A DNA stretch of 29,650 nt from positions 1 through 29,650 of IMG/VR virus record IMGVR_UViG_3300035661_000263. One strand, written 5' to 3'. Each line of letters begins with the position of its first letter. Positions within the stretch are counted from its first letter, which is position 1. Below are positions 163 to 28,402 of the stretch, piece after piece. The notes beneath the pieces are model-generated. The model made no database searches, was not told the DNA's origin, and saw nothing but the letters and a program-made list of their open reading frames with translations. The position numbers were made by a program, and so were the translations under genes. This DNA is from a virus.

Positions 163-999
163 TTAACATGACTTTAAAAACTCACGTATTACTTTTTCAT
201 CTGTATAAAGATACCACGTTTTGTAGTTAATTAACATAACCTTACCACCTACCCATACTTCTGAATCTTTTGGAAGTGGTCTTGGCAAAGTTTTTGTTGT
301 GTGCACCGTAAAGCCAGTTTCTTTTGGAGAATACGCTCTCCATATTTCTTCCAAAAATATGTTTTTATATTTTTCAAGATCACTTTCATTCAGATTAAAT
401 TCTTCTTTAAATTTTTTTATTGCTTCTGGATCATTATTTTTAAGTCGTCTATCAAAATCTTTTAAACCATTTAAACTATCATCTATATCAGCCAAACTAA
501 ATTTGAGATTGAAATATTCAATTTTCCGTCTAACACCAAACAATGTAATGTATGTGTCCCAAATATCTTTTCTGTTTATCATTCCAATCTTTATGCCATC
601 ATAAGGAATCATCACGTAAGTTTTAGTTTTATCATTAAAAACATAATCATTGGCAGTTTCATAGTTTGTCGATCCAATGAAAGATCGAGACCTCTTTGGA
701 AAATCCTTATAGTCAGGGTGATTATCAAGAATCACTGTATAGTAATTATAGGTATTTTGACTTTTTCGCATCGTGGCACTAGGATCTACTGTAGCAAATC
801 CCGTTGTAATTGATAATTTAGGATCGCCACGATAAAATGGAGTATCATCTTTTAGCATCCAAAGTGCGTCTTTGGCATGTTTTCTAAGTTCTTCAAATGC
901 ATTCTCTATATCTAGAGAGATATATTGAGGTTCTTGTTTAATTGCAGCTTCATCAAGTATTAGAAAATCTTTAAAAGATAAATGATCTTTTATTATCAT
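163..999 (-). CDS. ART-like putative internal head protein, group A
   Basis: 278 residues. A leader with LSFKDFLILDE at 7-17 is followed by AA, which fits a [LI]-x-E prohead-protease site. Candidate ADP-ribosyltransferase landmarks are FYRGD (Arg57), RSRSFIGST (Ser110-Thr111, an STS-like strand) and SEVWVGGKVML (Glu247). Between them lie the group signatures RKSQNTYNYY, YKDFPKRS, MIPYDGIKIGM and SPKETGFTV. The usual ExE of Arg-specific enzymes is replaced by D-S-E. Its ATG overlaps an out-of-frame TGA left by the upstream paralogue (ATGA), so the genes were probably coupled. No strong ribosome binding site is visible. The ART assignment is by motif only; the target is unknown. Confidence 0.62.
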   Translation of the reverse strand: MIIKDHLSFKDFLILDEAAIKQEPQYISLDIENAFEELRKHAKDALWMLKDDTPFYRGDPKLSITTGFATVDPSATMRKSQNTYNYYTVILDNHPDYKDFPKRSRSFIGSTNYETANDYVFNDKTKTYVMIPYDGIKIGMINRKDIWDTYITLFGVRRKIEYFNLKFSLADIDDSLNGLKDFDRRLKNNDPEAIKKFKEEFNLNESDLEKYKNIFLEEIWRAYSPKETGFTVHTTKTLPRPLPKDSEVWVGGKVMLINYKTWYLYTDEKVIREFLKSC

Positions 1000-1095
1000 A
1001 ATATTTTAGAATTGAAGTTAAGTTTGTTAGTTGTGTGACGAACATTTTGCATTTTAGAAGCGAACCAAGGTAAATTGTTATAATCTTTACGATAG
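998..1095 (-). other. Vestigial 3' coding segment of the upstream ART-like gene
   Basis: After the stop of the gene at 1096-1935, another frame encodes NYRKDYNNLPWFASK and runs on to a TGA that overlaps the next ATG at 997-999. The intact paralogue at 1986-2888 ends with NYRKDYNNLPWFAPKK in frame. This stretch is therefore the former C terminus, put out of frame by a small indel near 1096-1105, where about two bases are missing relative to the paralogue. Confidence 0.75.
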
Positions 1096-1935
1096 TTAAG
1101 ATTGGTTTTTAAAAAACTTATATGTTTCATTTACCATTTTATTCCACATTTCCATATCAATTAGCATAACCTTACCACCTACCCATACTTCAGAATTTGG
1201 AAGAGGCCTTGGTAATGTTTTTGTTGTATGTACTGTAAAGCCTGTTTCTTTTGGAGAATATGCTCTCCATATTTCTTCCAAAAATATGTTTTTATATTTT
1301 TCAAGATCACTTTCATTTAACGTAAAAGCTTCTTGGAACTTTTTTATTGCTTCTAGATCATCGTTCTTAAGGCATTTATCAAAGTCTTTTAAGCCTTTTA
1401 AACTTTCATCTATACCCATTCTTTCAAACATGGTATTGATATAATCAATACCATGCGTTTTACCAAATATTGTTATTTCTGTGTGCCAGATATCTTTGTT
1501 GTTTACCATTCCAATCTTTACACCATCATAAGGAATCATGGCATAAGTGTTATTATCAAAAATACTATAATCCCTAGCAACATAATAATCTGTTGATCCA
1601 ATGAAAGATCGAGACCTCTTCGGAAAATCTTTGTAACCAGGGTGATTATCAAGAATCACAGTATAATAATTACTGGTATTTTCGCTTTTTCGCCTTGTAG
1701 CACTGGGATCTACTGTAGCAAATCCCGTCCGCATAGCAACTACGATATTATCACTGCTATCACCACGATAAAGCGGAGTATTATTTTTTATCATCCAAAG
1801 CGCATCTTTAGCGTACTTGTTTAGTTCTTCAATCGCGTTCTCTATCTCTACCGAGATATATTGAGGTTCTTGTTTAACCGCTGCTTCATCAAGTATTAGA
1901 AAATCTTTAAAAGATAAATGATCTTTTTTTATCAT
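1096..1935 (-). CDS. ART-like putative internal head protein, group A (frameshifted C terminus)
   Basis: 279 residues and a close paralogue of the gene at 163-999. The leader LSFKDFLILDE at 7-17 is followed by AAV, giving a possible cleavage after Glu17. ART-like landmarks are LYRGD (Arg57), RSRSFIGST (Ser114-Thr115) and SEVWVGGKVML (Glu249, preceded by N-S instead of E-x). The protein ends abruptly at FFKNQS. The next 98 bases encode, in another frame, the C-terminal tail still present in its neighbour, so the 3' end has suffered a frameshift. The catalytic landmarks lie upstream and are intact. A weak TACAAATA lies 30 nt before the start. Confidence 0.62.
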   Translation of the reverse strand: MIKKDHLSFKDFLILDEAAVKQEPQYISVEIENAIEELNKYAKDALWMIKNNTPLYRGDSSDNIVVAMRTGFATVDPSATRRKSENTSNYYTVILDNHPGYKDFPKRSRSFIGSTDYYVARDYSIFDNNTYAMIPYDGVKIGMVNNKDIWHTEITIFGKTHGIDYINTMFERMGIDESLKGLKDFDKCLKNDDLEAIKKFQEAFTLNESDLEKYKNIFLEEIWRAYSPKETGFTVHTTKTLPRPLPNSEVWVGGKVMLIDMEMWNKMVNETYKFFKNQS

Positions 1936-1985
1936 AGTGTTTCAGAATTGAAGTTAGACACTGTTATTTGTACTAACATTTTGAA

Positions 1986-2888
1986 TTATTTTTTAGGAGC
2001 GAACCAAGGCAAATTGTTATAATCTTTACGGTAGTTAAGACCATTCTTGTTAAAAAACTTGCGTGTTTCATTTACCATGTTAAGCCACATTTCATAGTCA
2101 ATTAACATAACCTTACCACCTACCCACACTTCAGAAGCTGGAAGAGGCCTTGGTAAAGTTTTTGTAGTGTGCACTGTAAAACCTGTTTCTTTTGGAGAAT
2201 ACGCTCTCCATATTTCTTCCAAAAATGTCTTCGAGTATTTCTCAACTTCTTCATCAGTTAATTTAAAGATTTTTTTGAATCGCTCCACAGCGCGTTCATC
2301 TCCGTGTTTGAGCAACTTATCAAAACCCTCAAAGATTTTTATGTTCTGTGCTGGTTTTTTTAAAATGTTATTAAAATCTTCATTGGCAAATTCAAATGTA
2401 CTTTGCTTTCCGAATAAAGTTATTTTCACGTACCATATATCTCTTTCATGCACCATTCCAATCTTAGCACCATCGTATGGAATCATTATAAAAGGGCGGT
2501 TAGTGTCGTCATCAACATTAATAAAGTCTGCAGCAATTTCTTCTTTTGTCGCACCTATGAAAGAACGTGATCGTTTTGGAAAATCTTTATACTCTGGATG
2601 GTTGTCAAGAATTACGGTGTAATAATTAAAATTATCTTGGCTTTTACGCTCTGTAATACTTGTGTCTACATTAACAAACCCCGTTTGTTTCAATGTTGCA
2701 TTTAATCCTGGATTCAAGTCACCACGATAAAGTGGAGTATTTTTTTGCAGCATCCAAAGAGCACCTCTAGCATGCTCATTTAGTTGTTCAATCGCATTTT
2801 CTACCTCTACTGGTTCATAGTGTGGTTCCTTTCCAATAGCGGCCTCATTAAATAAAAGAAATTCGATGAAGGATGTGTACTTTGTCAT
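1986..2888 (-). CDS. ART-like putative internal head protein, group A
   Basis: 300 residues. The leader is more diverged (SFIEFLLFNE, then AAI). ART-like landmarks are LYRGD (Arg55), RSRSFIGAT at 106-114 and SEVWVGGKVML (Glu253, preceded by A-S). Unlike the two genes downstream it keeps a full C-terminal tail, NYRKDYNNLPWFAPKK, and so shows what the ancestral group A C terminus looked like. The bases after its stop stay open in frame up to a TGA overlapping the next ATG, so even this gene may have been shortened by a point change to TAA. Twenty bases separate it from the upstream paralogue. Target unknown. Confidence 0.62.
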   Translation of the reverse strand: MTKYTSFIEFLLFNEAAIGKEPHYEPVEVENAIEQLNEHARGALWMLQKNTPLYRGDLNPGLNATLKQTGFVNVDTSITERKSQDNFNYYTVILDNHPEYKDFPKRSRSFIGATKEEIAADFINVDDDTNRPFIMIPYDGAKIGMVHERDIWYVKITLFGKQSTFEFANEDFNNILKKPAQNIKIFEGFDKLLKHGDERAVERFKKIFKLTDEEVEKYSKTFLEEIWRAYSPKETGFTVHTTKTLPRPLPASEVWVGGKVMLIDYEMWLNMVNETRKFFNKNGLNYRKDYNNLPWFAPKK

Positions 2889-2908
2889 ATTATTTCAAAC
2901 TAAATTAA

Positions 2909-3901
2909 TCATTTCTGCTTAAGAGCATCTCTCATGTCATCCCACATATCCACATCAATTAACATAACCTTACCACCTACCCACACTTCTGTGTCGACAT
3001 ATTTTCTTGGCAAAGTTTTCGTTGTATACACTCTAAAGCCTGTTTCTTTTGGAGAATATGCTCTCCATATTTCTTCCATAAACCTTTTTGAGTATTTAAG
3101 TGCTTCTTTATTAGTTAGATCATAAGCTTTTTTTAGATTTTCTATTGCAAATCTATCACCACTCTTAAGTAACTTATCAAAATCCTCAAAGCTTTTTATG
3201 TTTGGATTTATCCCCATGCGTTTAAAAGGACGATTAGCCCGCTCAAAATCCATGCTCATAGTATGATTAAAAGGTGATATTCTTACGCCCCAAATGTCCC
3301 TTTCGTTTACCATTCCAATCTTTACATCATCATAAGGAATCATTATTAAAGGTTTATTAAGACCTGAATAATGCTGAGCAATAACTAAATTTGTTGTTCC
3401 AATGAAAGATCGAGACCTCTTTGGAAAATCCTTATAGTCAGGGTGATTATCAAGAATCACTGTATAGTAATTACTAGTATTTTCGCTTTTTCGCCTTGTA
3501 GCGCTGGGATCTACTGTAGCAAATCCTGTCTTCATAATATCTTCGATATTATTACTTCTATCACCACGATAAAGTGGTCTATTTTCATACAACATCCAAA
3601 GTGCATCTTTAGCGTGTCTGTTTAATTCTTCAATTGCTCGTTCAACTTCTAACGATTGATACTGTGGTTTCTTCCCAACAGAAGCTTCATTAAGTGAGAG
3701 AAAATCTTTAAAAGATAAATTTTCTCCCAACCCCATCATCCTTTTAGTAATGCCCATCCGAAGTGCCCAGTACCGTTCATCCTTCTTATCATAAGGATAT
3801 TCTGCATCAACAATTTCCTTTGCCTTATTCCACAGATGTTCTGCTCTTTCGACAGAAATCTTAGCCTGTTTTGCTAGATGTTTTAGCGCTGAAGACGGCA
3901 T
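2909..3901 (-). CDS. ART-like protein with extra N-terminal helical module, group A
   Basis: 330 residues. It differs from its paralogues by about 58 residues before the leader. This part is predicted helical and basic, beginning MPSSALKHLAKQAK and containing AEHLWNKAKEI and YWALRMGITKRMMGL. The leader motif NLSFKDFLSLNEAS then appears internally at 61-74, so a cut after Glu72 would remove the module and the leader together. ART-like landmarks are LYRGD (Arg112), RSRSFIGTT and TEVWVGGKVML (Glu305, preceded by D-T). I have an impression of similar N-terminal modules in other large-myovirus proteins but cannot name a family. The long start is supported by the in-frame coding character of the module. 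Confidence 0.6.
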   Translation of the reverse strand: MPSSALKHLAKQAKISVERAEHLWNKAKEIVDAEYPYDKKDERYWALRMGITKRMMGLGENLSFKDFLSLNEASVGKKPQYQSLEVERAIEELNRHAKDALWMLYENRPLYRGDRSNNIEDIMKTGFATVDPSATRRKSENTSNYYTVILDNHPDYKDFPKRSRSFIGTTNLVIAQHYSGLNKPLIMIPYDDVKIGMVNERDIWGVRISPFNHTMSMDFERANRPFKRMGINPNIKSFEDFDKLLKSGDRFAIENLKKAYDLTNKEALKYSKRFMEEIWRAYSPKETGFRVYTTKTLPRKYVDTEVWVGGKVMLIDVDMWDDMRDALKQK

Positions 3902-3902
3902 A

Positions 3903-4715
3903 TTATTTTTTAACGTAATTAATTAAGGTAACCGGGTCAACTCTAAAAGCATTAACTGCGTAATACTTATCGCATGAGATCATGATCTCATTATCTTCGT
4001 ATTCTGAAGATAATGCGTCTTTAAGACCAGTATCATACTTCCAAAGATCATTGTGTTTAATAAAACTCTTAACAAACTGTATCCATGGGCTTTCTCTCTC
4101 ATCAGCAATATTAATACCCTTTTTATCAGCCCATTTAAGAAACAGATCATATCTCTTTTGAGATTCAGCGTATGCATCAGGATATTTCTTCTTTAGAAAA
4201 GCAAAGAACCTTTTCCTAAGCTTATCGCTGAAATTAGGATTAAATGAACTCGTTAAAGTTTTATGTATGATTGGACTTATATAGAAGTCATCAGCTGGGT
4301 CTGCTGTTTGGTCTGACCAAGCATAGTTGAAATTTCCAATTGGAAAAATCATATACGCATTGCCATATTTTTCGGTTTGACGAATATCACCGATAACAAA
4401 CAAAGAAGTTGACCTCAGTGGTTCACCAATATCTGATTTGAATTTTTCATTCAATGTATCATGTAACCATTTAGGAGAATCAAGTGGTATTCTGTCAGTT
4501 CTAATTGTGCCTATATACATTATATCATCAAGTTTTTCATTAACTGGCTTCAAATACCCGTTCGATCTATTAACATGTATACCACGATAAACTACCTTTC
4601 CACCACTTTCATTCAAAAATAGTTGACAATCACGCTTGATAAGATTGGCAATATACATCAAATCTTCATCATCAACGTTCGTGTTCTCTAAAATAAATTG
4701 TTTGAAAGAAATCAT
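3903..4715 (-). CDS. ART-like putative internal head protein, group B
   Basis: 270 residues starting with the clear leader MISFKQFILE, then NT, a [LI]-x-E site after Glu10. Landmarks are KRDCQLFLNES, VVYRG (Arg44), RSTSLFVIGD at 101-110, MIFPIGNFNYAWSD and DNEIMISCDKYYAV (Glu243). Group B shares with the genes at 5552 and 15359 a Cys in the first helix, the phrase FPIG/FPKG and a G/D-N-E catalytic-Glu context, and is only distantly like groups A and C. The ART fold is inferred from the order and spacing of YRG, the central Ser/Thr strand and the final Glu strand. One base separates it from the next gene. Confidence 0.58.
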   Translation of the reverse strand: MISFKQFILENTNVDDEDLMYIANLIKRDCQLFLNESGGKVVYRGIHVNRSNGYLKPVNEKLDDIMYIGTIRTDRIPLDSPKWLHDTLNEKFKSDIGEPLRSTSLFVIGDIRQTEKYGNAYMIFPIGNFNYAWSDQTADPADDFYISPIIHKTLTSSFNPNFSDKLRKRFFAFLKKKYPDAYAESQKRYDLFLKWADKKGINIADERESPWIQFVKSFIKHNDLWKYDTGLKDALSSEYEDNEIMISCDKYYAVNAFRVDPVTLINYVKK

Positions 4716-5551: not shown

Positions 5552-6196
5552 TTACAAGGTCTCAAGGAATGGTTTAACAATATCAGTGAAAACATACCCG
5601 CCCAGCTTGAAAGCATAGAACCTTTCACATTTTACGTGAATCTCGTTTCCTGATTTAATGCACTCAATAAGTTTTTCATTATGCAACCAATGCATGTGCC
5701 GCATCTTACTTACTAAATAATCTGTTGCATTATTTAAGCGCTTTTCATATGGTAGATTCCTTGATGTGTTTGTCATCTGCACGAACACCCGCGAATGCCA
5801 CCCAGTTATATCACTTAAGTCTTGATCTAGACCACACAACCATTCAAATTTTCCAATCGGGAAAATAACGAGAACACCATCAAATGTTTTTCCATATACG
5901 TACGCATCATTAACGTTTCCAGTAGTAAAAAGCCAGTTTCTTGCCGGCCCACCGAACATATCTGTGAATAGCTTATTAACTTGAGTGTGCAAGTACACAT
6001 CAGAATCTCTAGGCTTAGCGCGTTCTTTAAAGTTACGAATTTCCCAATCACCTTTTGGATAACGCATAGTGCCATGATATAATAAATGCTGTCCTTTACT
6101 ACCTTTTAGTTGTTCTAACATGAATGCGCAGTCTGTTTTGAACCGCTCAAGATCAAATGTTTTCCCCTCAGTTATGAATTGCTTAAATGATATCAT
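5552..6196 (-). CDS. ART-like protein with YHGT in place of YRG, group B
   Basis: 214 residues from MISFKQFITE. I chose this ATG over the one 12 bases upstream (MVQI) because it restores the leader and overlaps the kinase stop codon as TAATG. A [LI]-x-E site follows (ITE, then GK). The first-helix Cys (TDCAFMLEQ), WLFTTGN, FPIGKFEW and GNEIHVKCERFYAF (Glu185) place it in group B. Where paralogues have YRG it has LLYHGT (His41). YHGT is the form seen in diphtheria-toxin/PARP-type (H-Y-E) ADP-ribosyltransferases, although the rest of the protein follows its R-S-E-like sisters. Either the chemistry differs or the protein is inactive. It is the shortest complete family member here. Confidence 0.55.
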   Translation of the reverse strand: MISFKQFITEGKTFDLERFKTDCAFMLEQLKGSKGQHLLYHGTMRYPKGDWEIRNFKERAKPRDSDVYLHTQVNKLFTDMFGGPARNWLFTTGNVNDAYVYGKTFDGVLVIFPIGKFEWLCGLDQDLSDITGWHSRVFVQMTNTSRNLPYEKRLNNATDYLVSKMRHMHWLHNEKLIECIKSGNEIHVKCERFYAFKLGGYVFTDIVKPFLETL

Positions 6197-6948
6197 TATT
6201 TGTACCAACCATCTACTTTTTTAGCAAGAACATCAAATGGAATTATTTCTGGTGTTAGATACTTTTGGTTCTTAGCTTTCATTTGTTCAAGTGTTCTCTT
6301 ACCGATTGGGTTCTGAATTTCGGAATTAAAAAATTGCTGAGTGGCATTGAATGCAGCAAGCATTTCTGAATCATCCAGAACATCAGAATCATTCTCAATC
6401 TGTTTGAAAAATTGCACCTTTGATTTTAAGTAATCAGCATTTTCCTTGTTACGTGAATCAACAGCACGAATGAATTCGGTATCAACATGACGCCCTGTTT
6501 TTTTGGCGCGTTCTTCTGCTCGTTTTAGTGCAGTTTCTAATGACGTGTGCACGAACACGATACCTACATCATAACCAAGAGATTCTAAAATACCAATTCT
6601 ATGAAGAATATTTGACACATCATTGGACGTGCCGTCAATAAAGAGAGGAAGCATCCCGTTTAGATACTGTGTGAGGCTATTCTTTGTTACACGGTGCGTA
6701 GTATCTCGGAATTCATGCCATGTTTCTGACTTAATTTCTTTTTTCCACTTGGATGCAAGAAATTCTGCGGCAATATCTGTATTAACAACCTTTGGATTAA
6801 TTTGACCTTTAAGCTGTTTGATAGTATAGCTTTTTCCAGCGCCAGGCAAACCAATAACAAAGATGGCCTTGAAAATACCTTTGTCATTGATGCTTTCATC
6901 AAGATATTGTTTAAAAGAAATAACTGGTTTATCTTTCATGTTTATCAT
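6196..6948 (-). CDS. Zeta-toxin-like P-loop kinase with cargo leader
   Basis: 250 residues. After a short lead, residues 9-19 carry VISFKQYLDES, the same leader with a [LI]-x-E site as the ART-like neighbours. The body is a P-loop kinase: Walker A GLPGAGKS at 33-40, KVVNTD about 53-58, FIDGTSND after strand 3, and an Arg-rich lid (ALKRAEERAKKTGRHV). This order is typical of zeta toxin and polynucleotide-kinase-like small-molecule kinases. The substrate could be a nucleotide sugar, a nucleotide or an RNA end; the sequence does not decide. A modest ribosome binding site (AAAGG) precedes it. Its stop overlaps the next start (TAATG), implying coupling with the YHGT protein. Confidence 0.7.
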   Translation of the reverse strand: MINMKDKPVISFKQYLDESINDKGIFKAIFVIGLPGAGKSYTIKQLKGQINPKVVNTDIAAEFLASKWKKEIKSETWHEFRDTTHRVTKNSLTQYLNGMLPLFIDGTSNDVSNILHRIGILESLGYDVGIVFVHTSLETALKRAEERAKKTGRHVDTEFIRAVDSRNKENADYLKSKVQFFKQIENDSDVLDDSEMLAAFNATQQFFNSEIQNPIGKRTLEQMKAKNQKYLTPEIIPFDVLAKKVDGWYK

Positions 6949-6979: not shown

Positions 6980-8032
6980 TTAAGAATTATTATTTTTAGC
7001 TTTTTGTTTGAGTATCTCTAACCTTAAAGTCTCATATACATAACCATTAATTTGAACACCACTTTCTTCAAGTTTAATAAGCATACGTGCGAATATTGGT
7101 AATGTCATTGCTATACATTTACCTGAAAACCAACATTCAACATTCCTACCAAGCTGGTTGCCGTATTTTACAAGTGTAAGACCAGTAGATTCTGGTGTCA
7201 TTATCTCAGACGATAATGCCGTAAATCTATTGTTATCCGTTGATTTGAATATCTCGTAAACATGCTTTAAACTGGTTGAAGATGTTGTAAATCTACCTGC
7301 AGCTATTTCCTGTTCTAGTGTTTTTAATGTATCTATTTTTGATGAAAGATTTATCAATATATTATGTGCTGCACCAAAATCATCATATAGTTGCTGAAAC
7401 TTACTATCTTTAAATTTTAAAGATTTTTGTGTAACAAAAATATCCCACCTAAGCATGAGTCCTTCAGGTGTCAACTTTTCTAATTGGTTGTTAATACTAT
7501 TAACATGAAAAAATTTATCATTTACCCTTTCTATACCTGAAGATATAAGAAACCTAGAAATATCAAGCATATGATTTGGGTAATCACTAAAAATAGACGA
7601 ATTAATTTTTTGATGAAAAAAATCTTGCTCTTTTGAAACTGCCAAATTTGCACCATCAAATGGAATCATTACATAAACTTGACCATAAATAGTAGCTACA
7701 TATTTATCTGTAACACAAATAAATGATTTACTTCTATCAGGAAAATCTTTCATCTTTGTGGATGCAGAAAGCATCAATTGATATAGATTATCAGTATCTT
7801 TAGAGGTTCTTTCACCAGTTGATGAATCCATTATTAAAAAATCATCATCACCAGGTTTTTCTTCAAACCCACGATAAATTACACCACCGTTTTGAATGGC
7901 TTTTAAGCCGTCTTTTGCATATTCATACAATAAAGATATAGCATCATCACTATCTATTTCATTGACAGCCCATTTTTTAATTACTGCTTCGCTGATATTT
8001 TGCTCAGTGAGATATTGCTTGAATGTAATCAT
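6980..8032 (-). CDS. ART-like putative internal head protein, group C copy 4
   Basis: 350 residues with leader MITFKQYLTE, then QN (cut predicted after Glu10). Landmarks are VIYRGF (Arg54), MDSSTGERTSKDT, KDFPDRSKSFICVT (about 95-108), MIPFDGANLAV, TPESTGLTL and NVECWFSGKC (Glu299). The phrases xDSSxxxRxS, KDFPxRSxSFI, IPxDG and [ST]Px[ES]TGx[TV] are shared with group A, so the groups are homologous despite low overall identity. It has a longer insert than group A before the catalytic Glu, with a helical stretch around 200-245. It is the most diverged of the first three tandem copies and ends in a Lys/Asn-rich tail. Confidence 0.6.
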   Translation of the reverse strand: MITFKQYLTEQNISEAVIKKWAVNEIDSDDAISLLYEYAKDGLKAIQNGGVIYRGFEEKPGDDDFLIMDSSTGERTSKDTDNLYQLMLSASTKMKDFPDRSKSFICVTDKYVATIYGQVYVMIPFDGANLAVSKEQDFFHQKINSSIFSDYPNHMLDISRFLISSGIERVNDKFFHVNSINNQLEKLTPEGLMLRWDIFVTQKSLKFKDSKFQQLYDDFGAAHNILINLSSKIDTLKTLEQEIAAGRFTTSSTSLKHVYEIFKSTDNNRFTALSSEIMTPESTGLTLVKYGNQLGRNVECWFSGKCIAMTLPIFARMLIKLEESGVQINGYVYETLRLEILKQKAKNNNS

Positions 8033-8033
8033 C

Positions 8034-9122
8034 TTACATACCTGAATTATGTCTTATTTTTTTCTTTTCTTTTAAAATTTCTTCTTCCATTGCATCTTTT
8101 ACAAATAGATGAATAGGAAATTCTTGTTTTTCTAACTCAATAAGTATACGTGCAAACATTTGTAATGTCATCACTATACATTTGCCTGAAAACCAGCATT
8201 CTACATTCTTATTAAGTGGTTCACCGTACTTTACAAGTGTAAGATCAGTAGATTTCGGTGTCATTATTTCAGATGACAGAGCTGTAAATCTATGGTCCTT
8301 TGTTGATTTGAATATCTCATAAACACGCATTAAGCTAGTTGAAGATGATGTAAATCTGCCTGCAGCTATTTCTGGTGCTAACTTTGCCAGTGTTTTTACT
8401 GTAGATGATGAAAATTGATTTATTGGCACACTAATTTTAGATGAGATAGGTTTATAGTGAATATAATCATACATCTGTTGAAATTTTTCATTCTTAAATT
8501 TCAATGATTTATGGTTAACGTAGATATCCCAGTTAAGTAAAAGCATTTCTGGTGATAGCTTTTTTAGGTCATTATCAATTTTAGTTGCATCAACAAATTT
8601 TCCAAATTTAGATGTTTCTGCACCTGAAGCAATAAGAAATCTGGAAATACTATACATATGATTTGGATCATCTTTAAAGATAGGTGATTTAATTAGTTGG
8701 TCATAAAAATCTGATTTTTTTGATACTGCTAAATTTGTGTTATCAAATGGAACTATAACATAAACGCGCCCATATGATCTTGCAGTATCTTTATTTGTAG
8801 TACAGATAAATGATTTACTTCTATCAGGAAAATCTTTCATCTTTGTAGAAGCAGAAAGCATCAGTTGATATAGATTGTCTGAATCTCTTGAGGTTCTTTC
8901 ACCAGTTGATGAATCCATTATAAAAAAGTCATGTTTACCTCTTGGTTTTTCCGCAAACCCACGATAAATTACACCACCGTTTTGAATGGCTTTTAAGCCG
9001 TCTTTTGCATATTCATTCAATGTAGATATAGCAGTGTCAACATCTACTCCGTCAACAGACCATTTTTTAATTACTGCTTCGCTGATGTTTTGCTCAGTGA
9101 GATACTGCTTGAATGTAATCAT
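8034..9122 (-). CDS. ART-like putative internal head protein, group C copy 3
   Basis: 362 residues and very similar to the copy at 9166-10260 through most of its length. It has the leader MITFKQYLTE followed by QNISEAVIKKWSVD, VIYRGF (Arg54), RGKHDFFIMDSS, DFPDRSKSFICTT, VPFDNTNLAV and NVECWFSGKC (Glu308). The variable segments are around 205-245 and the last 15 residues; the catalytic landmarks are conserved. This is the pattern expected when targets diverge after tandem duplication. A single base separates it from the next copy, and no promoter or terminator intervenes. Confidence 0.6.
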   Translation of the reverse strand: MITFKQYLTEQNISEAVIKKWSVDGVDVDTAISTLNEYAKDGLKAIQNGGVIYRGFAEKPRGKHDFFIMDSSTGERTSRDSDNLYQLMLSASTKMKDFPDRSKSFICTTNKDTARSYGRVYVIVPFDNTNLAVSKKSDFYDQLIKSPIFKDDPNHMYSISRFLIASGAETSKFGKFVDATKIDNDLKKLSPEMLLLNWDIYVNHKSLKFKNEKFQQMYDYIHYKPISSKISVPINQFSSSTVKTLAKLAPEIAAGRFTSSSTSLMRVYEIFKSTKDHRFTALSSEIMTPKSTDLTLVKYGEPLNKNVECWFSGKCIVMTLQMFARILIELEKQEFPIHLFVKDAMEEEILKEKKKIRHNSGM

Positions 9123-9165
9123 TTTATATTAAAACTAAAAACATTAGATTTTTACATAAACCATA

Positions 9166-10260
9166 TTATGTTTTATTATGATTTATTATTTTTTTCTTTT
9201 CTTTTAAAATTTCTTCTCCCATTGCATCTTTTACAAATGAATGAATTGGAAATTCTTGTTTTTCTAACTCAATAAGTATGCGCGCAAACATTGGTAATGT
9301 CATTGCTATGCATTTACCTGAAAACCAACATTCTACGTTCTTATCAAGTGGGTAACCATATTTTACAAGCGTAAGATCAGTAGATTCTGGTGTCATTATC
9401 TCAGATGCCAGAGCGGTAAATCTATGGTTCTCAGTTGATATGAATATCTCATAAACACGTAATACTCTTGATAAGGATGCTGTAAATCTGCCCGCAGCTA
9501 TTTCCGGTGCTAACTTTGTCAGCGTTTCAATCGTTGATTTTGAAAATTGCTTTAATGGAGATTTGACGTCAGGTGGGATTGGTTTATAGTTAATACCTTC
9601 ATACATCTGTTGAAATTTTTCATTCTTAAATTTCAAAGATTTTTTAATAAAATTAACGCAAATATCCCAGTTAAGTAAAAGCATTTCTGGTGATAGCTTT
9701 TTTAGGTCATTATCAATTTTAGCTGCATCAACAAATTTTCCAAATTCAGGTTTACCTACCCCTGAAGAAACAAGAAACCTAGAAATGTTATACATACGAT
9801 TTGGATTATCTTCGAAGATAGGTGATTTAATTAGTTGGTCGAAAAAATCTGATTTTTTTGATACTGCTAAATAGGTGCCATCATATGGCACCATTACATA
9901 AGCATGTCCATATGATCTTGCAGTATCTTTATTTGTAGAACAAATAAATGATTTGCTTCTATCAGGATAATCCTTCATCTTTGTGGATACAGAAAGCATC
10001 AACTGGTAAAGATTATCAGTATCTTTTGACGTCCTTTCACCAGTTGATGAATCCATTATAAAAAAGTCATGTTTACCTCTTGGTTTTTCTACAAACCCAC
10101 GATAAATTACGCCACCATTTTGAATGGCTTTTAACCCATCTTTTGCATATTCATTTAATGTAGATATAGCAGTATTAACATCTACTCTATCAACAGACCA
10201 TTTTTTAAACACAGCTTCGCTGATGTTTTGCTCAGTGAGATACTGCTTGAATGTAATCAT
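9166..10260 (-). CDS. ART-like putative internal head protein, group C copy 2
   Basis: 364 residues. Leader MITFKQYLTE then QNISEAVFKKWSVD, VIYRGF (Arg54), DYPDRSKSFICST, VPYDGTYLAV and NVECWFSGKC (Glu310). It is nearest to the copy at 8034 and shares long DNA identities with it at both ends, including the C-terminal coding stretch ILKEKKKI. Forty-three AT-rich bases separate the two copies. The start codon context has only a weak purine stretch, as for most genes of the array. Confidence 0.6.
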   Translation of the reverse strand: MITFKQYLTEQNISEAVFKKWSVDRVDVNTAISTLNEYAKDGLKAIQNGGVIYRGFVEKPRGKHDFFIMDSSTGERTSKDTDNLYQLMLSVSTKMKDYPDRSKSFICSTNKDTARSYGHAYVMVPYDGTYLAVSKKSDFFDQLIKSPIFEDNPNRMYNISRFLVSSGVGKPEFGKFVDAAKIDNDLKKLSPEMLLLNWDICVNFIKKSLKFKNEKFQQMYEGINYKPIPPDVKSPLKQFSKSTIETLTKLAPEIAAGRFTASLSRVLRVYEIFISTENHRFTALASEIMTPESTDLTLVKYGYPLDKNVECWFSGKCIAMTLPMFARILIELEKQEFPIHSFVKDAMGEEILKEKKKIINHNKT

Positions 10261-10263
10261 GAT

Positions 10264-11334
10264 TCAACTTTGATCATCTTGTTTAATTTCTTGTTTTATA
10301 TCATTTACTATTGTCGGATCAACGTCATATCCTTGTTCTTCAATCTTATCTATAATTTGCGCAAACAATGGTAAAGAAATAACCATGCACTTACCGGAAA
10401 ACCAGCACTCATTTCCTACAGTAAAATCTTCACTACCATAGTATCGATTTTTAAGATGTAAAGAAGTTGGCGTCATTATTGTAGATGATAGCGCAGTAAA
10501 TCGTTCATTTTTTGTTGATTTAAATAGTCTATAAACGCGTGATAATTCACTTGAATATATTTTACATCTACGTGCAATTATTTCCTGTTCCATCTTCTCT
10601 ATGATTTTTACTTCGGATGGTGAAAGTGTTGCATGTTTAAATAGATTAAAATCATCATACATTTTTCCGATTTCTTTATTCGTAAATTCCAAAGAGTCTC
10701 TATATCTAACAAAGATGTCCCAACGAACTATGAGATTTTCAGGTGAAAATTTTTCTAGATAATTATTAATTTCATCAGCGCTAATAAACTTTTTATCTAT
10801 TTGTTTTACTCCTGTTGAAATAAGAAAATTAGAAATATCTTCTTGCATCGTACCTACACTACCTTCGTAGATAGATGTATAAATCGGAGTGTTTAAAAAA
10901 TCTCTATGCTCTGATACTGTAATCTTAATTCCATTAAACGGCACAATCACGTAAGGATGACCATATAATTTAGCAGTGTCTATGCTGCCCGCAACACAGA
11001 TAAGTGATTTACTTCTGTCAGATAAATTTTTCATCTTTGTTGATGTTGAATACATCAGTTGATAAAGATTATCTGTATCTTTAGAGGTTCTTATGCCTGT
11101 TGAAGAATCCATTATCAAAAAATCACCTTCAGTAGGTTTAGTTGCAAACCCACGATAAAGTATGCAATTATAATTGCTTATTGCTTTCTTCCAATTCTTT
11201 GAATGTGTGTTCAGTAATGATATAGCAGTATCAACATCTATTTTTGCATCAGTTTTATTGATATCCCAGTGCTTAATTATTTTTGTTGCTTCATGGATGT
11301 CTTGCTCAGTGAGATATTGCTTAAATGTAATCAT
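10264..11334 (-). CDS. ART-like putative internal head protein, group C copy 1
   Basis: 356 residues, the most diverged group C member and the one next to the terminase gene. It has the leader MITFKQYLTE then QDIHEATKI, ILYRGF (Arg61, shifted by an insertion of about seven residues), LSDRSKSLICVAGS, VPFNGIKITV, TPTSLHLK and NECWFSGKCMV (Glu309, preceded by G-N). It has the best ribosome binding site of the array (AAGGAG, 5 nt before the ATG). Its ATG overlaps the last codons of the terminase gene by four bases, so its translation is tied to the head-packaging operon. Confidence 0.6.
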   Translation of the reverse strand: MITFKQYLTEQDIHEATKIIKHWDINKTDAKIDVDTAISLLNTHSKNWKKAISNYNCILYRGFATKPTEGDFLIMDSSTGIRTSKDTDNLYQLMYSTSTKMKNLSDRSKSLICVAGSIDTAKLYGHPYVIVPFNGIKITVSEHRDFLNTPIYTSIYEGSVGTMQEDISNFLISTGVKQIDKKFISADEINNYLEKFSPENLIVRWDIFVRYRDSLEFTNKEIGKMYDDFNLFKHATLSPSEVKIIEKMEQEIIARRCKIYSSELSRVYRLFKSTKNERFTALSSTIMTPTSLHLKNRYYGSEDFTVGNECWFSGKCMVISLPLFAQIIDKIEEQGYDVDPTIVNDIKQEIKQDDQS

Positions 11335-15358: not shown

Positions 15359-16249
15359 CTATTTCAATTTGAACAGAATATAATCGTAAATTTGAGATAT
15401 TAGGGAAAAATTTCTATTTTTAAAATTACTATTTTTTTCTTCCTCTTTTTTAATTTCTTCAAGTACTAATGTTTCAGGAATTAAGTAGTATCCATCAGAT
15501 TCATAAAACGCAATTTCATTGCCAGAAGAAATTGCATCTGGTAACCGTTTACAGTTTAAATACAATTCAAGTCCTGTTTCCTTTAATCCTTGGCGTAGTA
15601 CTTGATATGGGTCACTATCTTTTGAAGGAAAAATTCCTTTTAATCTCGTTTTTTTAACAACCTGTTCAGTGATTTCACTGGCATCACCTGTTAAATCATG
15701 TACCCAATTCGTGGGTTCTGACTTATACAATGCATTTAATTTATCAAAAATAATAGCAAGTTGTTCTTCATCAGCTTTTTTTAGAGAACAGTTTTTAACT
15801 AGTGTTTCATAGATGTCAGCTTGCTGTTCAACTGAATCAATAATGTGCGGCGACCATGCCCATTTTGATTTGCCTTTTGGAAAACAGAACATTACCTGGC
15901 CAAATGCTTGTGCAAATGATTTGTCACCGGTAGCAAAGAAAGATCTTTTTCTAATGTCACGGATTTCATACGCGGCATCAAGCATAGAATTAAAAACAAA
16001 ATTAAATTCCCGTGATGAATCTTTAGGTTTTCTATCAAATGGTTGTGGTGTCCAGGAAATTGTATCTGTGTTAACACGTTGAACTTTGTTAACATCAACG
16101 CGTATTTTACCTATCCCCCTAAACATAGGTTCACCACGTGATTCGTTTAAAAACCAACTACAATTTTCTTTGATTGCTTTTAACCCTTCTTCAAAGGTAA
16201 AAGTCATTTCTTGTTGTTCATTAAGAAGAAAAGATTTGAATGTAATCAT
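15359..16249 (-). CDS. ART-like putative internal head protein, group B, isolated copy
   Basis: 296 residues with leader MITFKSFLLNE, then QQ (a [LI]-x-E site after Glu11). KENCSWFLNES, PMFRGIG (Arg44), KRSFFATGD, FPKGKSKWAWS and SSGNEIAFYESDGYYLI (Glu245) make it a group B relative of the gene at 3903. A Lys/Glu-rich stretch and a hydrophobic end (SLISQIYDYILFKLK) follow the catalytic-type Glu. It sits in the tail region, 4 kb from the main array, next to a broken gene and a homing-type endonuclease, so it was probably moved or inserted here. Target unknown. Confidence 0.58.
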   Translation of the reverse strand: MITFKSFLLNEQQEMTFTFEEGLKAIKENCSWFLNESRGEPMFRGIGKIRVDVNKVQRVNTDTISWTPQPFDRKPKDSSREFNFVFNSMLDAAYEIRDIRKRSFFATGDKSFAQAFGQVMFCFPKGKSKWAWSPHIIDSVEQQADIYETLVKNCSLKKADEEQLAIIFDKLNALYKSEPTNWVHDLTGDASEITEQVVKKTRLKGIFPSKDSDPYQVLRQGLKETGLELYLNCKRLPDAISSGNEIAFYESDGYYLIPETLVLEEIKKEEEKNSNFKNRNFSLISQIYDYILFKLK

Positions 16250-20296: not shown

Positions 20297-21070
20297 TTAA
20301 GTGTTTTCTGGCCCTCTAGATGTAACAATCGTTTTACCAAAATCGCCATAATCATACCCAGCTTTAAATGGAACAAGCTCTCCATTTTCATCAAACTCAT
20401 TAATCTGAAATCCGTCGAGCTCACCAAGCTGAATTATGATCTTACGTACAAGCTCGTCTCGAATATCTACTGGGGCAGAAATATAGATTGGAATATCAAA
20501 CGTAAGAGACCACATGAGCACTCTTCTATCACCGCCAGGTGGATAATTTTCCTCATTATTAATTCCTGTCAATTCAACAGTAGTGATTTTTGTCCAATCA
20601 AATGCTGCATCAGATGTTTGAATTTGAAGAGCAGGGTCAAATAATACTAAAATCTGTTCAAGTATCTGATGAAGCTGCTGTGTGTTAGAAGCATACATTG
20701 AAAGCTCTACGCTCATAATATATGGAATTGGCATAACACGCACAACAGTTCTTAAATCATCTGGGTAAACCCCACCAGCTGGAAGAAATACCCGACGATC
20801 TACAACTCCAATTCCTTTTTTATTTGGTGATAAAGATATGCTTGAAATAGAAGCAGCCATTATTGGTAAAGAAAATGGTTTGTTCTGGGTGTTTCCAGCT
20901 TGAAGAGCTGCAACAACACGATCACGGCTACCAACTGTGATAGGTACCGTCATGAACTCAGGTTCATTACATTCACCCTTCCCAGTTTTAACTTTTAGAC
21001 CAGCAAAAATGTTACAAAATTGCAATAAATAAGATCGGAGCTGACCTTCATAAAAATAATCTGTTATCAT
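20297..21070 (-). CDS. 15: Tail sheath terminator / tail completion protein (gp15-like)
   Basis: 257 residues (T4 gp15: 272). ITDYFYEGQLRSYLLQFCNI near the N terminus, followed by FAGLKV, EFMTVPITVGSRDRVVA, MPIPYIMSVELSMYASN, QILEQILVLFDPALQI and RRVLMWSLTFDIPIYI, reproduces the gp15 pattern block by block. The protein caps the finished tail at the head-proximal end and joins tail to neck. Its ATG directly abuts the ATG of the opposite-strand endonuclease (CATATG, 21068-21073). Its ribosome binding site (AAGGAAAT) therefore lies inside the endonuclease coding sequence, and no separate promoter is visible; it could be read from upstream through the antisense gene. Confidence 0.9.
   Translation of the reverse strand: MITDYFYEGQLRSYLLQFCNIFAGLKVKTGKGECNEPEFMTVPITVGSRDRVVAALQAGNTQNKPFSLPIMAASISSISLSPNKKGIGVVDRRVFLPAGGVYPDDLRTVVRVMPIPYIMSVELSMYASNTQQLHQILEQILVLFDPALQIQTSDAAFDWTKITTVELTGINNEENYPPGGDRRVLMWSLTFDIPIYISAPVDIRDELVRKIIIQLGELDGFQINEFDENGELVPFKAGYDYGDFGKTIVTSRGPENT
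21024..21031 (+). promoter_or_regulatory. Possible late promoter (AATAAATA) for plus-strand endonuclease
   Basis: Plus-strand AATAAATA about 40 nt before the endonuclease ATG, inside the gp15 coding sequence. It may be chance in AT-rich coding DNA. Confidence 0.25.
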
Positions 21071-22768
21071 ATGATTTCCTTAAAAGAACAATTTCCTTAC
21101 GAATACGAAAAGTGTGTTAGTGTGATTAATGCGCATCCTAAGATTCGGGCAGCCGAGCTAGCCAAGTTAGAAAACTCTGAAGCATTTAAATATTTATCAG
21201 ATTTTGAAAGCAATCTGCAAAAGGCAAGAGCATTAATTTCTAATTTTCGTACTTGGCCAAAATGCCCAGTATGTAATAAAAGAGTCACATTTTTCAATGA
21301 CTTTTCAAAAACATGCAGCAAATCATGCTCTTCTATTTTGACCGCAAGTAATAGATCAAAAAAACAAGAAGCTAAAAATGCGGGCAAAATTGCTTCTATT
21401 TTGCAGGATCTTGCTAAACTTGGGATTACTCCAAAAGTTGTACCAACGTTAATAACACAAAAAGTAGAATGGATACATTTTGATCATTCATTTAAAAGAA
21501 GTCTTTATGCGGGGGCATGGTTAGCTGGTTGCCCAATTTGCAACAGAAAAAAACAAGTATCAGATGCATCAAAAACGAGATGGAAAAAATGGAAAAACAA
21601 TAATACTGAAAAATGGACGCATTCAGAATCAACAAAAGAAAAGATACGAAAAACTGTCCGTGAAAAATATGGATGTGATAATGTTTCTCAAAACCCCAAT
21701 GTAAAAAAGAAAATTAACTTAACTTATAGAGCGAATTACATTGAAAAAGTTGTACCAAAACTTTTAAAAGAAATTAAAGAACATTATAATGTTGTTCCAG
21801 TTGGGCAACATGACTATTCAGATAGCGGAAAAAAGCATGAATGGGTGCATATTGACTGTGGTCGCCATTTTTTTCACTATCTTAATTATGGTGGGCCCAC
21901 GCAATGTCCTAATTGTAGACCTAAGTCAACTCCTGAAGAAAGCTTATTTGAATTCTTATCGCAGTACGCAAAAGTAGAAAGGGGTCGTCGTGACCTGTTA
22001 TTACCATCTAAAAAGGAAATAGATATTTGGCTACCAGACTATTCACTTGGAATAGAATTAAATGGTGTGTATTGGCATTCAACTAAAAAAGAATATACAC
22101 CATTGCTTGAAAAAACAAAGCTTGCCGAAAAAAATAATATACAGCTTCTTCACATATGGGATTATGAATGGGCGGTAAAACGACCTATTATTGAAAATAT
22201 AATTCTATCTAAACTTGGAAAGACAAAAAAGATTTTTGCACGTAAATGCACAATTGAAATTGTTGATTCAGTTGTTGCTAAAAATTTCTATGAAGAAAAT
22301 CACATTCATGGAAAAAGTAATAGGCATACCCATAATATAGCGTTAAAAATGGATGATGACATCGTGTTCATGACATCTTTTGGAAGACCTCGCTTTTCAA
22401 AAAATGCTGAGTGGGAAATTATTAGAAGTTGTTCTAAAATTGGGTATACAGTGTTGGGTGGATTTGGAAAATGTCTGTCGTATTTTAGATCAAAATATAC
22501 TGGAAGAATAATAACATATGCAGACAGACGCTTTTTTGATGGTCATTCTTATAAAAAGCTTGGTTTTACAATGATTGCAGATAGACAACCAAACTATTAC
22601 TATGTAAAAGGAACTAATGTATTATCAAGAATGGAATGTCAAAAACACAAGCTCGTGAAAATACTGGGAAATGCTTTTGATCCATCACTAACAGAAGAAC
22701 AAAATATGTTAATAAATGGTTGGCATCAAATTAAAGATTGTGGTGTCTCTACTTGGGTGTTACCTTAA
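21071..22768 (+). CDS. EDxHD/Vsr-type homing endonuclease, opposite strand
   Basis: 565 residues. Zinc-binding pairs CPVCNK/CSKSC (C65, C68, C82, C86), CPIC (C154, C157) and CPNC (C280, C283 region) surround a NUMOD-like segment (KYGCDNVSQNPNVKKKI, 199-215). The nuclease core is EIDIWLPDYSLGIELNGVYWH with E316, D318, E329 and H336, plus Asp364 in IWDYEW. The C-terminal domain (ARKCTIEIVDS, EENHIHGKS, ITYADRRFFDGHSYKKLGF, PNYYYVKG) matches that of the endonuclease at 16635. It is the only long gene on the plus strand. Its first codon touches that of gp15, so the element seems precisely fitted against an essential gene. No good ribosome binding site is seen. Confidence 0.78.
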   Translation: MISLKEQFPYEYEKCVSVINAHPKIRAAELAKLENSEAFKYLSDFESNLQKARALISNFRTWPKCPVCNKRVTFFNDFSKTCSKSCSSILTASNRSKKQEAKNAGKIASILQDLAKLGITPKVVPTLITQKVEWIHFDHSFKRSLYAGAWLAGCPICNRKKQVSDASKTRWKKWKNNNTEKWTHSESTKEKIRKTVREKYGCDNVSQNPNVKKKINLTYRANYIEKVVPKLLKEIKEHYNVVPVGQHDYSDSGKKHEWVHIDCGRHFFHYLNYGGPTQCPNCRPKSTPEESLFEFLSQYAKVERGRRDLLLPSKKEIDIWLPDYSLGIELNGVYWHSTKKEYTPLLEKTKLAEKNNIQLLHIWDYEWAVKRPIIENIILSKLGKTKKIFARKCTIEIVDSVVAKNFYEENHIHGKSNRHTHNIALKMDDDIVFMTSFGRPRFSKNAEWEIIRSCSKIGYTVLGGFGKCLSYFRSKYTGRIITYADRRFFDGHSYKKLGFTMIADRQPNYYYVKGTNVLSRMECQKHKLVKILGNAFDPSLTEEQNMLINGWHQIKDCGVSTWVLP

Positions 22769-22834: not shown

Positions 22835-24424
22835 TCATATACGATATGTTGTCTTAAAGGCATTACGATCTATATTCAAAATACTATTATTATCGTAAGA
22901 CTCGTTTTTAAAAAACTCATCAACGTCATTTGACTTAATATCAAACTCTTTTGCTTTTCGTTTAAACCAAATAAGTTCTTTAATCGTGAGATCAGAATTG
23001 ATGTTTTTAACAGCAGCAAGCGCTCGAATCATTAGTGAAATTAATGCTCTACGTTTACTATGAACATCACTATTCATATCATAAATTTGACCTAGTGTCC
23101 TCTTAGTAACAAAGGTAGGAATAAGCTTAACAATTCTACTTAATTCACTTGGAATATGTGGTGATGTTGCAGTAGAATTATCATTCACATCAAACGCGTT
23201 ATTAAACAACTTAACTAATTTCTTTACATATTCTTGTCGTTCAGCTGATGGATCACATGCAATTTCGACAGCAGTTACAAAACGAAGCACAAGTTTCTTT
23301 AATCTGTCTATATCACGTTCATATCCTGTTCCACCTGCAGCTCTGAATTCAACATATTCATTTCCATTAGATAGTTTTCCAAAATTTACACTGTAATACT
23401 TATCAGAACTTAGGTAACGTTCTGCAATTCTTTTCATCTGGTCAAAACCACGTGGAAACTTTCCATTTTCTTTTATTTTTTCAATAAGAGTCTTTAAATG
23501 TTCTTCGGCATATGTGTTACCAATCCTATTGAACAACTCAAGTGAATATTTTTCACCCATGAAAAGAGCTAATTTGAGGAGATCTATTTTTTCACTTATA
23601 TCAGGAATACTAACATTAACATGAAATCCAGTTGAGCTATTGGTTTTTAACCCATTTTTCTCATCACTGATAAATTTACAAACAGCTTCCATATCTGAAA
23701 GAGCTTTTGAAAGATTTTGCGGAGGTGATACTATTTCTAATCCTATACCACTACTATTAATCGAAGTGTCTGGTTCAATATACCAAGCATTTAATGATTT
23801 TTTTCTTTCATGGTATTCTCTGTAAACAACAACTTTAGCATTAACAATTTTTTCGAGTGCATCAGCAAGAGTGTTAGCCACACTTGAAGAATCACTATGA
23901 TCATCTCCTTCAGCATAAATCAATGAATTAGCTATATCTTGCCACCCATATTTTGGTATTAAATTATATCTGCTTGAAAAATATGCACGATCACCTTCAA
24001 ATTCTTTGTCTAACCACGTTTCAAATGTGAGATCAGGATCGTAATTTTTTTCCCATTCGCGTTCAGCTTTTTTCCGGGCGGCTTCTTCGTTATCATCCTC
24101 ATCATCGCTGTCTTCAAGAAAGTCCATCCAATTCGAATAAACAAATTCATCTTTTAAGTCTGCTTTCCAGTTTTCATAATCTCTTTCGATGGTATGCCAA
24201 ACGTTGCGCGGCGCATCAAACCATTCAATAAAATCATCAAGAGTAACAAAATCTGAAATATCTAGTATTTCTCTATCGTCATTTTTTGAAAAATATGGCG
24301 AATTAGGTTCTACTGATATTTCAAATTCAAATCCTACACGCGCAACATCACCTAGTCGTTTTTCCGTATCGCTAAATGTAGCCATGTTCATGGCCTTTTC
24401 TGAGAGAAAATCAAGTAATTTCAT
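22835..24424 (-). CDS. Amidoligase-like enzyme, possible head cargo
   Basis: 529 residues. Motifs come in the order of the putative amidoligase (glutamine-synthetase-like, COOH-NH2 ligase) family: RVGFEFEI (29-36), WYIEPDTSI (214-222), GLEIVSPP (228-235), TGFHVNVS (265-272) and EYVEFRAAGGTGYE (356-369). Such enzymes form amide bonds using ATP. A strongly acidic insert (about 104-125) is unusual. The N terminus MKLLDFLSE, then KA, is a loose version of the cargo leader with an L-x-E site. It lies between gp14 and the plus-strand endonuclease, with which it is convergent across 66 bases lacking a clear terminator. Substrate unknown; cell wall or protein tagging are both possible. Confidence 0.62.
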   Translation of the reverse strand: MKLLDFLSEKAMNMATFSDTEKRLGDVARVGFEFEISVEPNSPYFSKNDDREILDISDFVTLDDFIEWFDAPRNVWHTIERDYENWKADLKDEFVYSNWMDFLEDSDDEDDNEEAARKKAEREWEKNYDPDLTFETWLDKEFEGDRAYFSSRYNLIPKYGWQDIANSLIYAEGDDHSDSSSVANTLADALEKIVNAKVVVYREYHERKKSLNAWYIEPDTSINSSGIGLEIVSPPQNLSKALSDMEAVCKFISDEKNGLKTNSSTGFHVNVSIPDISEKIDLLKLALFMGEKYSLELFNRIGNTYAEEHLKTLIEKIKENGKFPRGFDQMKRIAERYLSSDKYYSVNFGKLSNGNEYVEFRAAGGTGYERDIDRLKKLVLRFVTAVEIACDPSAERQEYVKKLVKLFNNAFDVNDNSTATSPHIPSELSRIVKLIPTFVTKRTLGQIYDMNSDVHSKRRALISLMIRALAAVKNINSDLTIKELIWFKRKAKEFDIKSNDVDEFFKNESYDNNSILNIDRNAFKTTYRI

Positions 24425-26530: not shown

Positions 26531-28402
26531 TCAGCCAATCATGAACGCGGTGTTACCAAAGTTTACGCCCCCATTTCCAACTTCATAGTCAAGAATCTGA
26601 CGTAGAAGTTCTGTTTGTTTTTCACTTGCTATCGATAAAAGTTCTGCACCATTTAGAGTAATACCACCATTAGGACCTGGAAGGGTACCATACTTAGAAC
26701 GAATCATACCTAACGTTTCAATCAATTCAGATTCTGCCCATCCCTGAAGCCACTGTTTTGCCCAACGATCCACAAGAAGTTCTTGCTCAGTGCGTTCAAC
26801 AACAACTTCAAGAACAACACGTTCCTCTTGATTAACTAGACGTCTTAAAATGGTAAGCTGTCGTGATACTTCATCCCACGTAAAAACAAGGTCACCAGCA
26901 AAGATTCTATCGAATTGTTCTGAAAGTTGTTGAAATAAATGAATTGATGTTAAATCAATCATCTCACCTTGAAACAACTGATTAAAAAATGCTTGTGCAT
27001 AAAGACCTGTATCTGAAGAAAAACTATTCAAACCTAACATATTAACACGATGAACCTTAATAACATTTACGATTCTGTCCGTTTTATTACGTGGGTCATT
27101 TAGATAGTATGTTGTTTGTCCTTGCTTTAATGTTATTAGGATGTGACAATGTGCGTACGCATTATCCGATCTCTGCCTAAACGTATCAAGTGCATTATCA
27201 ATAGCGATTTGAAAATGCTCCTCAGAAAGTTCAACGCACACCTGAGGGTACCCTAACTGATGCTTAAGAACATTTATAAGACGCAAACGTTCACTTGGTG
27301 AACCATCAGTACCTACACCAAGTCTATCAGATGTTGGTGAACCTTCACTGTCTGTGTCGGCTTTAGTCCAGCTGGTTCCATCCCATACAAGTAGGTCACG
27401 CTTGCTAGAATCATAGAAGAAATCTCCAACTTGTGGAATATTTGGGTCAACTGTTCCATACGCTGGATCTCCAATGCTAATAGGGTACCAGGTTAAACCA
27501 CCATCACTTGACACTTGCATCAAGTCAGGCGTTGGGGAAAACCATCCACCTAATGTATAAACTTGGAGAAGAACTGTTGATGGACCACCAACAGTTGGTT
27601 TAAGTGTTAGATGTATAAACTCGCCAATTGTTGGTGTTGTTGGATAATCCCCAGATACAGTTGCTCCAGCATATGGCACCCAGCTAGCTCCAAGCTTTAC
27701 TCGAGTATTTGATGAATTACAAACAACCCATGTATGACCGTCAAAGAATTTAAGGTTTTGATCAGTTTCATTAAAGAACAAATAGTTAATACCGATTGGC
27801 GGCCTAATTCCTACTGGAATAGTCTTATCTGTAGCTACAACCCATGCCTGTAATGATGCATTCCAAACAAATACATTGTTTGAAGAAGGCTCATAGTATA
27901 CTTGACCATTGTAAGGGTTCTCTGGTGCTATATTAGAGCGTGGAATCGCTCCTGCATACGTTTGGAAACCCTTATCAAATAGTGATGTCTCAACAGGATA
28001 TGATTGTTTACCAATCGTGTAGTACTGTAGAGCATTTGATGCTGCATGAATGGACGCATAGTATAACTTATTGGGATCAATGTTAAAAACATCAACCGAA
28101 GTTTGGTTGACATTATCCCCAAAGAACCCGTAAAATGCTGCAACAACGTGCGCGTTTCCAATTTTATCAGCAGGTGCAGCCCAATCTGTAGACGCGTGAT
28201 ATCTTGTTCCGTCAACTGGAAATTCTTCTGGTGTAAACTTTTGTTCAGATAATAGAACAACAGCTCCATCATAGACAAGCGAAGGAGATGGAATATTCCA
28301 TGTCAATCTTATAGATGTCGGTGTTAACTTTGTTACCGTGATGTTTATAAGACGGCCATCAATCCAAAGTTGATGAGATGTAAGTTGAATTTGATCTGAC
28401 AT
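26531..28402 (-). CDS. 13: Neck protein (gp13-like) with large N-terminal extension
   Basis: 623 residues against 309 in T4. The last roughly 250 residues (from RLRLINVLKHQLGYP through VELSEEHFQIAIDNALDTFR, YYLNDP, FDRIFAGDLVFTWDE and WAKQWLQGWAESELIETLG) are a gp13-type neck protein. The N-terminal part begins with a fibronectin-III-like domain (LTPTSIRLTWNIPSP, KLYYASIHAASN, about 25-145). It continues with at least three short motifs ending in a Trp strand (NVFVWNASLQAWVV, LKFFDGHTWVV, LLVWDGTSW). The extension probably projects from the virion neck and may bind a surface or decorate the collar. A candidate late promoter lies 32 nt before the start. Confidence 0.78.
   Translation of the reverse strand: MSDQIQLTSHQLWIDGRLINITVTKLTPTSIRLTWNIPSPSLVYDGAVVLLSEQKFTPEEFPVDGTRYHASTDWAAPADKIGNAHVVAAFYGFFGDNVNQTSVDVFNIDPNKLYYASIHAASNALQYYTIGKQSYPVETSLFDKGFQTYAGAIPRSNIAPENPYNGQVYYEPSSNNVFVWNASLQAWVVATDKTIPVGIRPPIGINYLFFNETDQNLKFFDGHTWVVCNSSNTRVKLGASWVPYAGATVSGDYPTTPTIGEFIHLTLKPTVGGPSTVLLQVYTLGGWFSPTPDLMQVSSDGGLTWYPISIGDPAYGTVDPNIPQVGDFFYDSSKRDLLVWDGTSWTKADTDSEGSPTSDRLGVGTDGSPSERLRLINVLKHQLGYPQVCVELSEEHFQIAIDNALDTFRQRSDNAYAHCHILITLKQGQTTYYLNDPRNKTDRIVNVIKVHRVNMLGLNSFSSDTGLYAQAFFNQLFQGEMIDLTSIHLFQQLSEQFDRIFAGDLVFTWDEVSRQLTILRRLVNQEERVVLEVVVERTEQELLVDRWAKQWLQGWAESELIETLGMIRSKYGTLPGPNGGITLNGAELLSIASEKQTELLRQILDYEVGNGGVNFGNTAFMIG

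Follow-up and report, generated by a model that had tools for sequence, protein, structure and literature searches.

In phage T4, the first ten residues of the internal protein IPIII are enough for packaging; targeting resides chiefly in residues 4 and 7 and processing in residues 8 and 10, and the prohead protease gp21 cuts after the motif L/I-x-E (PMC9026906). In the T4 record, ipII and ipIII both start with MKTYQEFIAE and ipI with MKTFKEF. A hypothetical T4 protein, gp61.1 (NC_000866.4, 18966-19130, minus strand), starts with MKTFKEFIKE, which fits the capsid-targeting pattern, and judged by this start it is possibly an unrecognised internal protein. Such leaders are already known in T4, as are amidoligases in phages. 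In Agrobacterium phage Atu_ph07, 131 virion proteins are encoded mostly by CDS 31-76, 170-215 and 284-329, and 29 proteins of CDS 31-76 were detected in particles (PMC6102473). Here we describe a locus in which an amidoligase gene within a myophage neck and tail block carries a capsid-targeting-like leader.

The ORF lies at 22835-24424 on the minus strand of the 29.65 kb stretch of viral DNA that we analysed (the window); it has an ATG start and encodes 529 amino acids. Residues 182-381 match the Pfam family Amidoligase_2 (PF12224) with 35.4 bits (E 1.3e-8), above the curated cut-off of 22 bits, which was the profile check that an earlier note on this DNA had proposed. The five motifs that the note had read in amidoligase order are all present on the minus strand: GFEFE (residues 31-35, 24320..24334), which holds the ExE metal motif, EPDTSI (residues 217-222, 23759..23776), EIVSPP (residues 230-235, 23720..23737), GFHVNVS (residues 266-272, 23609..23629) and EFRAAGGT (residues 359-366, 23327..23350), which holds the ExR motif. 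An alignment search found relatives encoded in 337 candidate stretches of viral contigs, of which 80 were retained. Across 22 aligned viral sequences, 16 of which also match Amidoligase_2, the residues G31, E33, E35, D219, S221, E230, R300, K342, N347, E359 and R361 are invariant; His268 is retained in the leader-bearing clade, whereas some remote relatives have Gln at this position. In PHROGs the protein falls into a family without a name, an NCBIfam search gave no match, and the C-terminal helical region (residues 397-529, 22835..23236) matches no Pfam family above its cut-off.

An AlphaFold2 model built with the 22-sequence alignment has a mean pLDDT of 82.3, falling below 50 in residues 1-8. 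Its top Foldseek match is glutamine synthetase (E 9.6e-3), and all 50 entries listed by VIA-align 2 are glutamine synthetases, the best Z, 12.3 over 203 aligned residues at 4.2 A, being that of 4bax_A. The predicted glutamine-synthetase-like catalytic fold spans residues 13-396 (23237..24388, minus strand), beginning directly after the leader and containing a mostly helical insertion at about residues 55-180. The match starts at about residue 100 of glutamine synthetase, and the N-terminal domain of that enzyme is therefore left unmatched. The two proteins agree in the fold of the catalytic domain and resemble each other in the order in which acidic, His and Arg motifs follow one another, but their sequence similarity is not significant: an amidoligase profile found no match among the sequences of solved structures, and an hhalign comparison with E. 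coli GlnA fell short of significance, so the relationship rests on fold and motifs. The matching of single conserved residues to individual glutamine synthetase residues is something that we infer. In a comparison with viral structure models, the highest-ranking matches that bear a name are amidoligases, one of them the Atu_ph07 homologue. Profile, predicted fold and conserved ligands together bear out the amidoligase identity claimed in the earlier note; the metal- and substrate-ligand motifs, whose loss would have counted against it, are retained across the 22 sequences. We think it likely that the protein is an active ATP-dependent ligase.

With Amidoligase_2 proteins of phages and bacteria the ORF shares the profile match, the fold and the order of motifs. 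Unlike the typical phage members compared, which have no leader, its clade has an N-terminal leader, and it adds the helical insertion, the helical C-terminus and a location in the structural operon. The note had called amide ligases unusual in a phage virion region. As such, these enzymes are not rare in phages; it is the place in the structural operon and the packaging leader that appear unusual. One 375 kb phage contig (L042) carries six amidoligase-like ORFs within 15.5 kb, without a leader of the type described below.

The leader, MKLLDFLSE, occupies residues 1-9 (24398..24424, minus strand), and a cut by a prohead protease is predicted after E9, where L-S-E fits the L/I-x-E cleavage motif of gp21. 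It is a nine-residue variant, one residue shorter than the T4 leader, and keeps F-L-x-E. The nearest relatives start, ahead of the domain, with MISFKQFLAE, MISFKQFLSE, MITFKQFLSE, MITFRQYLEE, MITFKEFLIE, MITFKEFLFE or MKIQYLFE. The orthologue leaders MISFKQFLAE, MITFKQFLSE and MITFKEFLIE agree with MKTYQEFIAE of T4 IPIII at residues 4, 7, 8 and 10, and six distinct amidoligase orthologues match exactly the pattern of aromatic residues at 4 and 7 followed by L/I-x-E at 8-10. Among five relatives the leader codons show 35 synonymous against 30 non-synonymous changes, and the next 20 codons, a linker, 36 against 118; the higher synonymous share in the leader indicates that the peptide is conserved. 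More distant amidoligases begin near the alignment column of Met12 (24389..24391, minus strand), and for this reason the leader seems to be an extension that was joined on ahead of that residue. Some LR huge phages start with MRKYSDKFLSQ or MKKYSEKFLNQ, which are leader-like starts in which the Glu is absent; these relatives can be read without alternative genetic codes. Two different amidoligases stand in tandem in L027 (7318-10988) and L024 (918-4588), with the leaders MKAKELYE and MKISDVSRNSDDLFE.

A loose version of the leader motif proved too weak, being found in 38/106 genes of the clade, 14/56 of T4 and 42/170 of remote phages. Because it failed to separate phages, we used a strict pattern, M..[FYW]..[FYW][LI].E, built on positions 4, 7, 8 and 10 of the T4 targeting sequence. 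Six of the 27 window genes begin with the strict pattern, as against none of 380 background genes; in a 50 kb stretch of T4 it picks out just ipII and ipIII among 56 genes, and in shuffled N-termini it occurs at 2.6e-4. The 18/100 genes found in relative loci are not an unbiased count, since a leader pattern was used to retrieve part of the loci, and two of them overlap. MKLLDFLSE itself fails the strict pattern, and its score of 20 against the T4 sequence is attained by 12 of the 380 background genes.

Unrelated proteins of this phage also carry leaders of this type, and all are encoded on the minus strand of the window. Four tandem paralogues at 6980..11334 each start with MITFKQYLTEQ, in the leader class of the amidoligase, and four more at 163..3901 have the leader-like starts LSFKDFLILDEA, SFIEFLLFNEA and LSFKDFLSLNEA. 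These eight paralogues, each of which begins in a leader-like way, belong to a single family, phrog_12810, and are arranged as two tandem arrays. Foldseek did not recognise the fold of this family; R..S..E-like motifs had made ADP-ribosyltransferases of the tandem paralogues (8034-9122 and others) a candidate reading, for which neither Pfam nor Foldseek, run with their model, gave support. A P-loop kinase of the Zeta_toxin/AAA_33 type (6196..6948) has the leader VISFKQYLDE, and its relative in L106 starts with MITFKQYLDE. In phrog_12810 this kinase and the array family appear to be united in one protein. Further leaders are MISFKQFILE (3903..4715), MISFKQFITE, read from Met5 (5552..6208), and MITFKSFLLNE (15359..16249). 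An AAA-type ATPase in L015 (12591-14144) has the leader MLSFIDFLAE, and ORFs of comparable size in L016, L021 and L057 begin in much the same way.

Atu_ph07 has a homologue of the amidoligase, gp196 (AUZ94978), with 33% identity over 55% of the query. Its number follows from a CDS count, and the portal (gp198) and prohead core (gp204) counted in the same way agree with the published numbering (PMC6102473). The gene lies inside the virion-protein cluster CDS 170-215, in an orientation opposite to that of the adjoining portal gene, and is like the window gene in its setting and in having a leader of the phage's own type, although the dialect is another one. A tandem array of ten genes in Atu_ph07 (gp53-62 in CDS accession order, within CDS 31-76) starts with M[RK]WxxLxE, its paralogues sharing the leader M[RK]WxQLTE, and the amidoligase there starts with MRW...LTE (MRWQDISSKKLTE). 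An M[RK]W start was found in 12 of 211 Atu_ph07 genes examined, among them the ten array genes and the amidoligase, against 2 of 1314 other genes. The amidoligase leader thus follows the dialect of its phage. Tandem paralogues in L019 that are related to the window ORF at 3903-4715 carry MKLxDLFE, and one of them MMTFKDFIAE, where the window copy has MISFKQFILE. With two leaders on one family, and a separate dialect in Atu_ph07, leaders therefore pass from one protein to another and go with the phage that carries them.

The closest described parallels are T4 IPII, IPIII and Alt. They share with the proteins described here a short leader at the N-terminus, which contains aromatic or hydrophobic residues and ends in L/I-x-E, the occurrence of one leader on unrelated proteins, and a T4-type prohead protease, which is present in relatives of our phage: the family PF03420 (S77) was found in Atu_ph07 and four relatives, and no protease gene was identified within the window, which is a fragment. 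They differ in that the cargo here is a ligase of glutamine synthetase fold, in that packaging is a prediction here, and in that leaders vary by phage (MITFKQFLxE, MKLxDLFE, M[RK]WxQLTE).

The neighbouring genes encode the tail tube (14672-15262), sheath (18347-20194), sheath stabiliser (20297-21070) and head-tail adaptor (26531-28402). In five relatives (L015, L016, L019, L021 and L057) the start of the amidoligase gene and the stop of the sheath stabiliser gene overlap, and next comes the sheath gene; in the window, the amidoligase lies upstream of the sheath stabiliser with a homing endonuclease in between. Two homing-endonuclease-like genes, at 21071-22768 (plus strand) and 16635-18245 (minus strand), adjoin the sheath and sheath stabiliser genes. 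On the minus strand, a Ser/Asp/Pro-repeat ORF (14201-14659) lies between two tail-tube-like genes and a nucleotide-sugar epimerase gene (28446-29357) adjoins the head-tail adaptor. No T4-type late promoter (TATAAATA) was present in the window.

On balance, we favour the view that the ORF encodes a glutamine-synthetase-like ligase of a T4-type giant myophage that is packaged in the head, trimmed by the protease, co-ejected with the DNA and active on the host. That it is packaged and processed we consider quite likely, and the earlier note's proposal of a packaged protein with an LxE leader is, as a prediction, well supported by the leader on unrelated neighbours, the T4 match of the orthologues, the dialects and the protease of the relatives. 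The enzyme would be made late, alongside the structural genes, to judge from its position; the nine-residue leader would, as the evidence strongly suggests, steer it into the prohead core, and a T4-type (S77) prohead protease would cut the leader off after E9. Since it carries a removable packaging tag, it is probably loaded into the particle and delivered into the bacterium with the DNA, as the internal proteins of T4 are. The trimmed enzyme would then be co-ejected into the host, where, as fold and ligands imply, Mg-ATP would activate a carboxylate as an acyl-phosphate to be joined to an amine in an amide bond; candidate acceptors are a host protein, a peptide or a small molecule. The enzyme would act as infection begins, ahead of any phage gene expression, in host takeover or counter-defence. 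That, once ejected, it has a target in the host we judge about as likely as not. An effector role through peptide tagging of host proteins, as the earlier note proposed, is possible. Wall modification, which the earlier note had also put forward, found no support, and a head-packaged protein delivered to the cytoplasm makes such a role less likely.

The leader might instead serve translation or an association with the membrane or the tail, in which case the unpackaged enzyme would work in the cytoplasm late in infection. Remote leaderless amidoligases do occur in phages outside structural blocks, for example in GR1, where the gene adjoins a gamma-glutamylcyclotransferase, a partner that was not recognised in the window. 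However, the match to the T4 targeting residues, the phage-specific sharing of leaders, the conservation of the leader and the S77 protease in relatives make this rather unlikely. It also seems unlikely that a packaged ligase works on the virion itself, cross-linking or tagging structural or internal phage proteins through amide bonds with no host target. In the relatives examined, the gene stands in the structural operon with the sheath stabiliser on one side and the sheath on the other, which would suit such a role, and a ligase of this type could in principle form isopeptide bonds, but the leader is common to many non-structural array proteins, including the P-loop kinase, and the chemistry needs ATP, a supply of which is absent from the mature head.

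Finally, the packaged protein could be catalytically dead and use its fold for binding or inhibition, in the manner of the T4 internal protein IPI, which acts as an inhibitor (PMC3012670). The replacement of His268 by Gln in some remote relatives is in keeping with this; the leader-bearing clade, however, retains His268 together with all the acidic and Arg motifs, and we regard a dead enzyme as quite improbable.

In open literature of incomplete coverage, we found no title or abstract on a head-packaged amidoligase. We tentatively suggest that giant T4-type phages load their heads with large, lineage-specific sets of enzymes by means of leader dialects, and that these sets include an amide ligase that tags a host target covalently, although we think it doubtful that the whole of this suggestion will hold. 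If it is true, it would reveal a head-delivered protein-modifying system beyond ADP-ribosylation that acts within the first minutes of infection, and would add a new chemistry to the repertoire of T4-style head-packaged proteins. It would also provide a sequence rule with which to predict head-packaged cargo in giant phages, most of whose virion proteins are without a function, and such a rule could be tested on existing virion proteomics.
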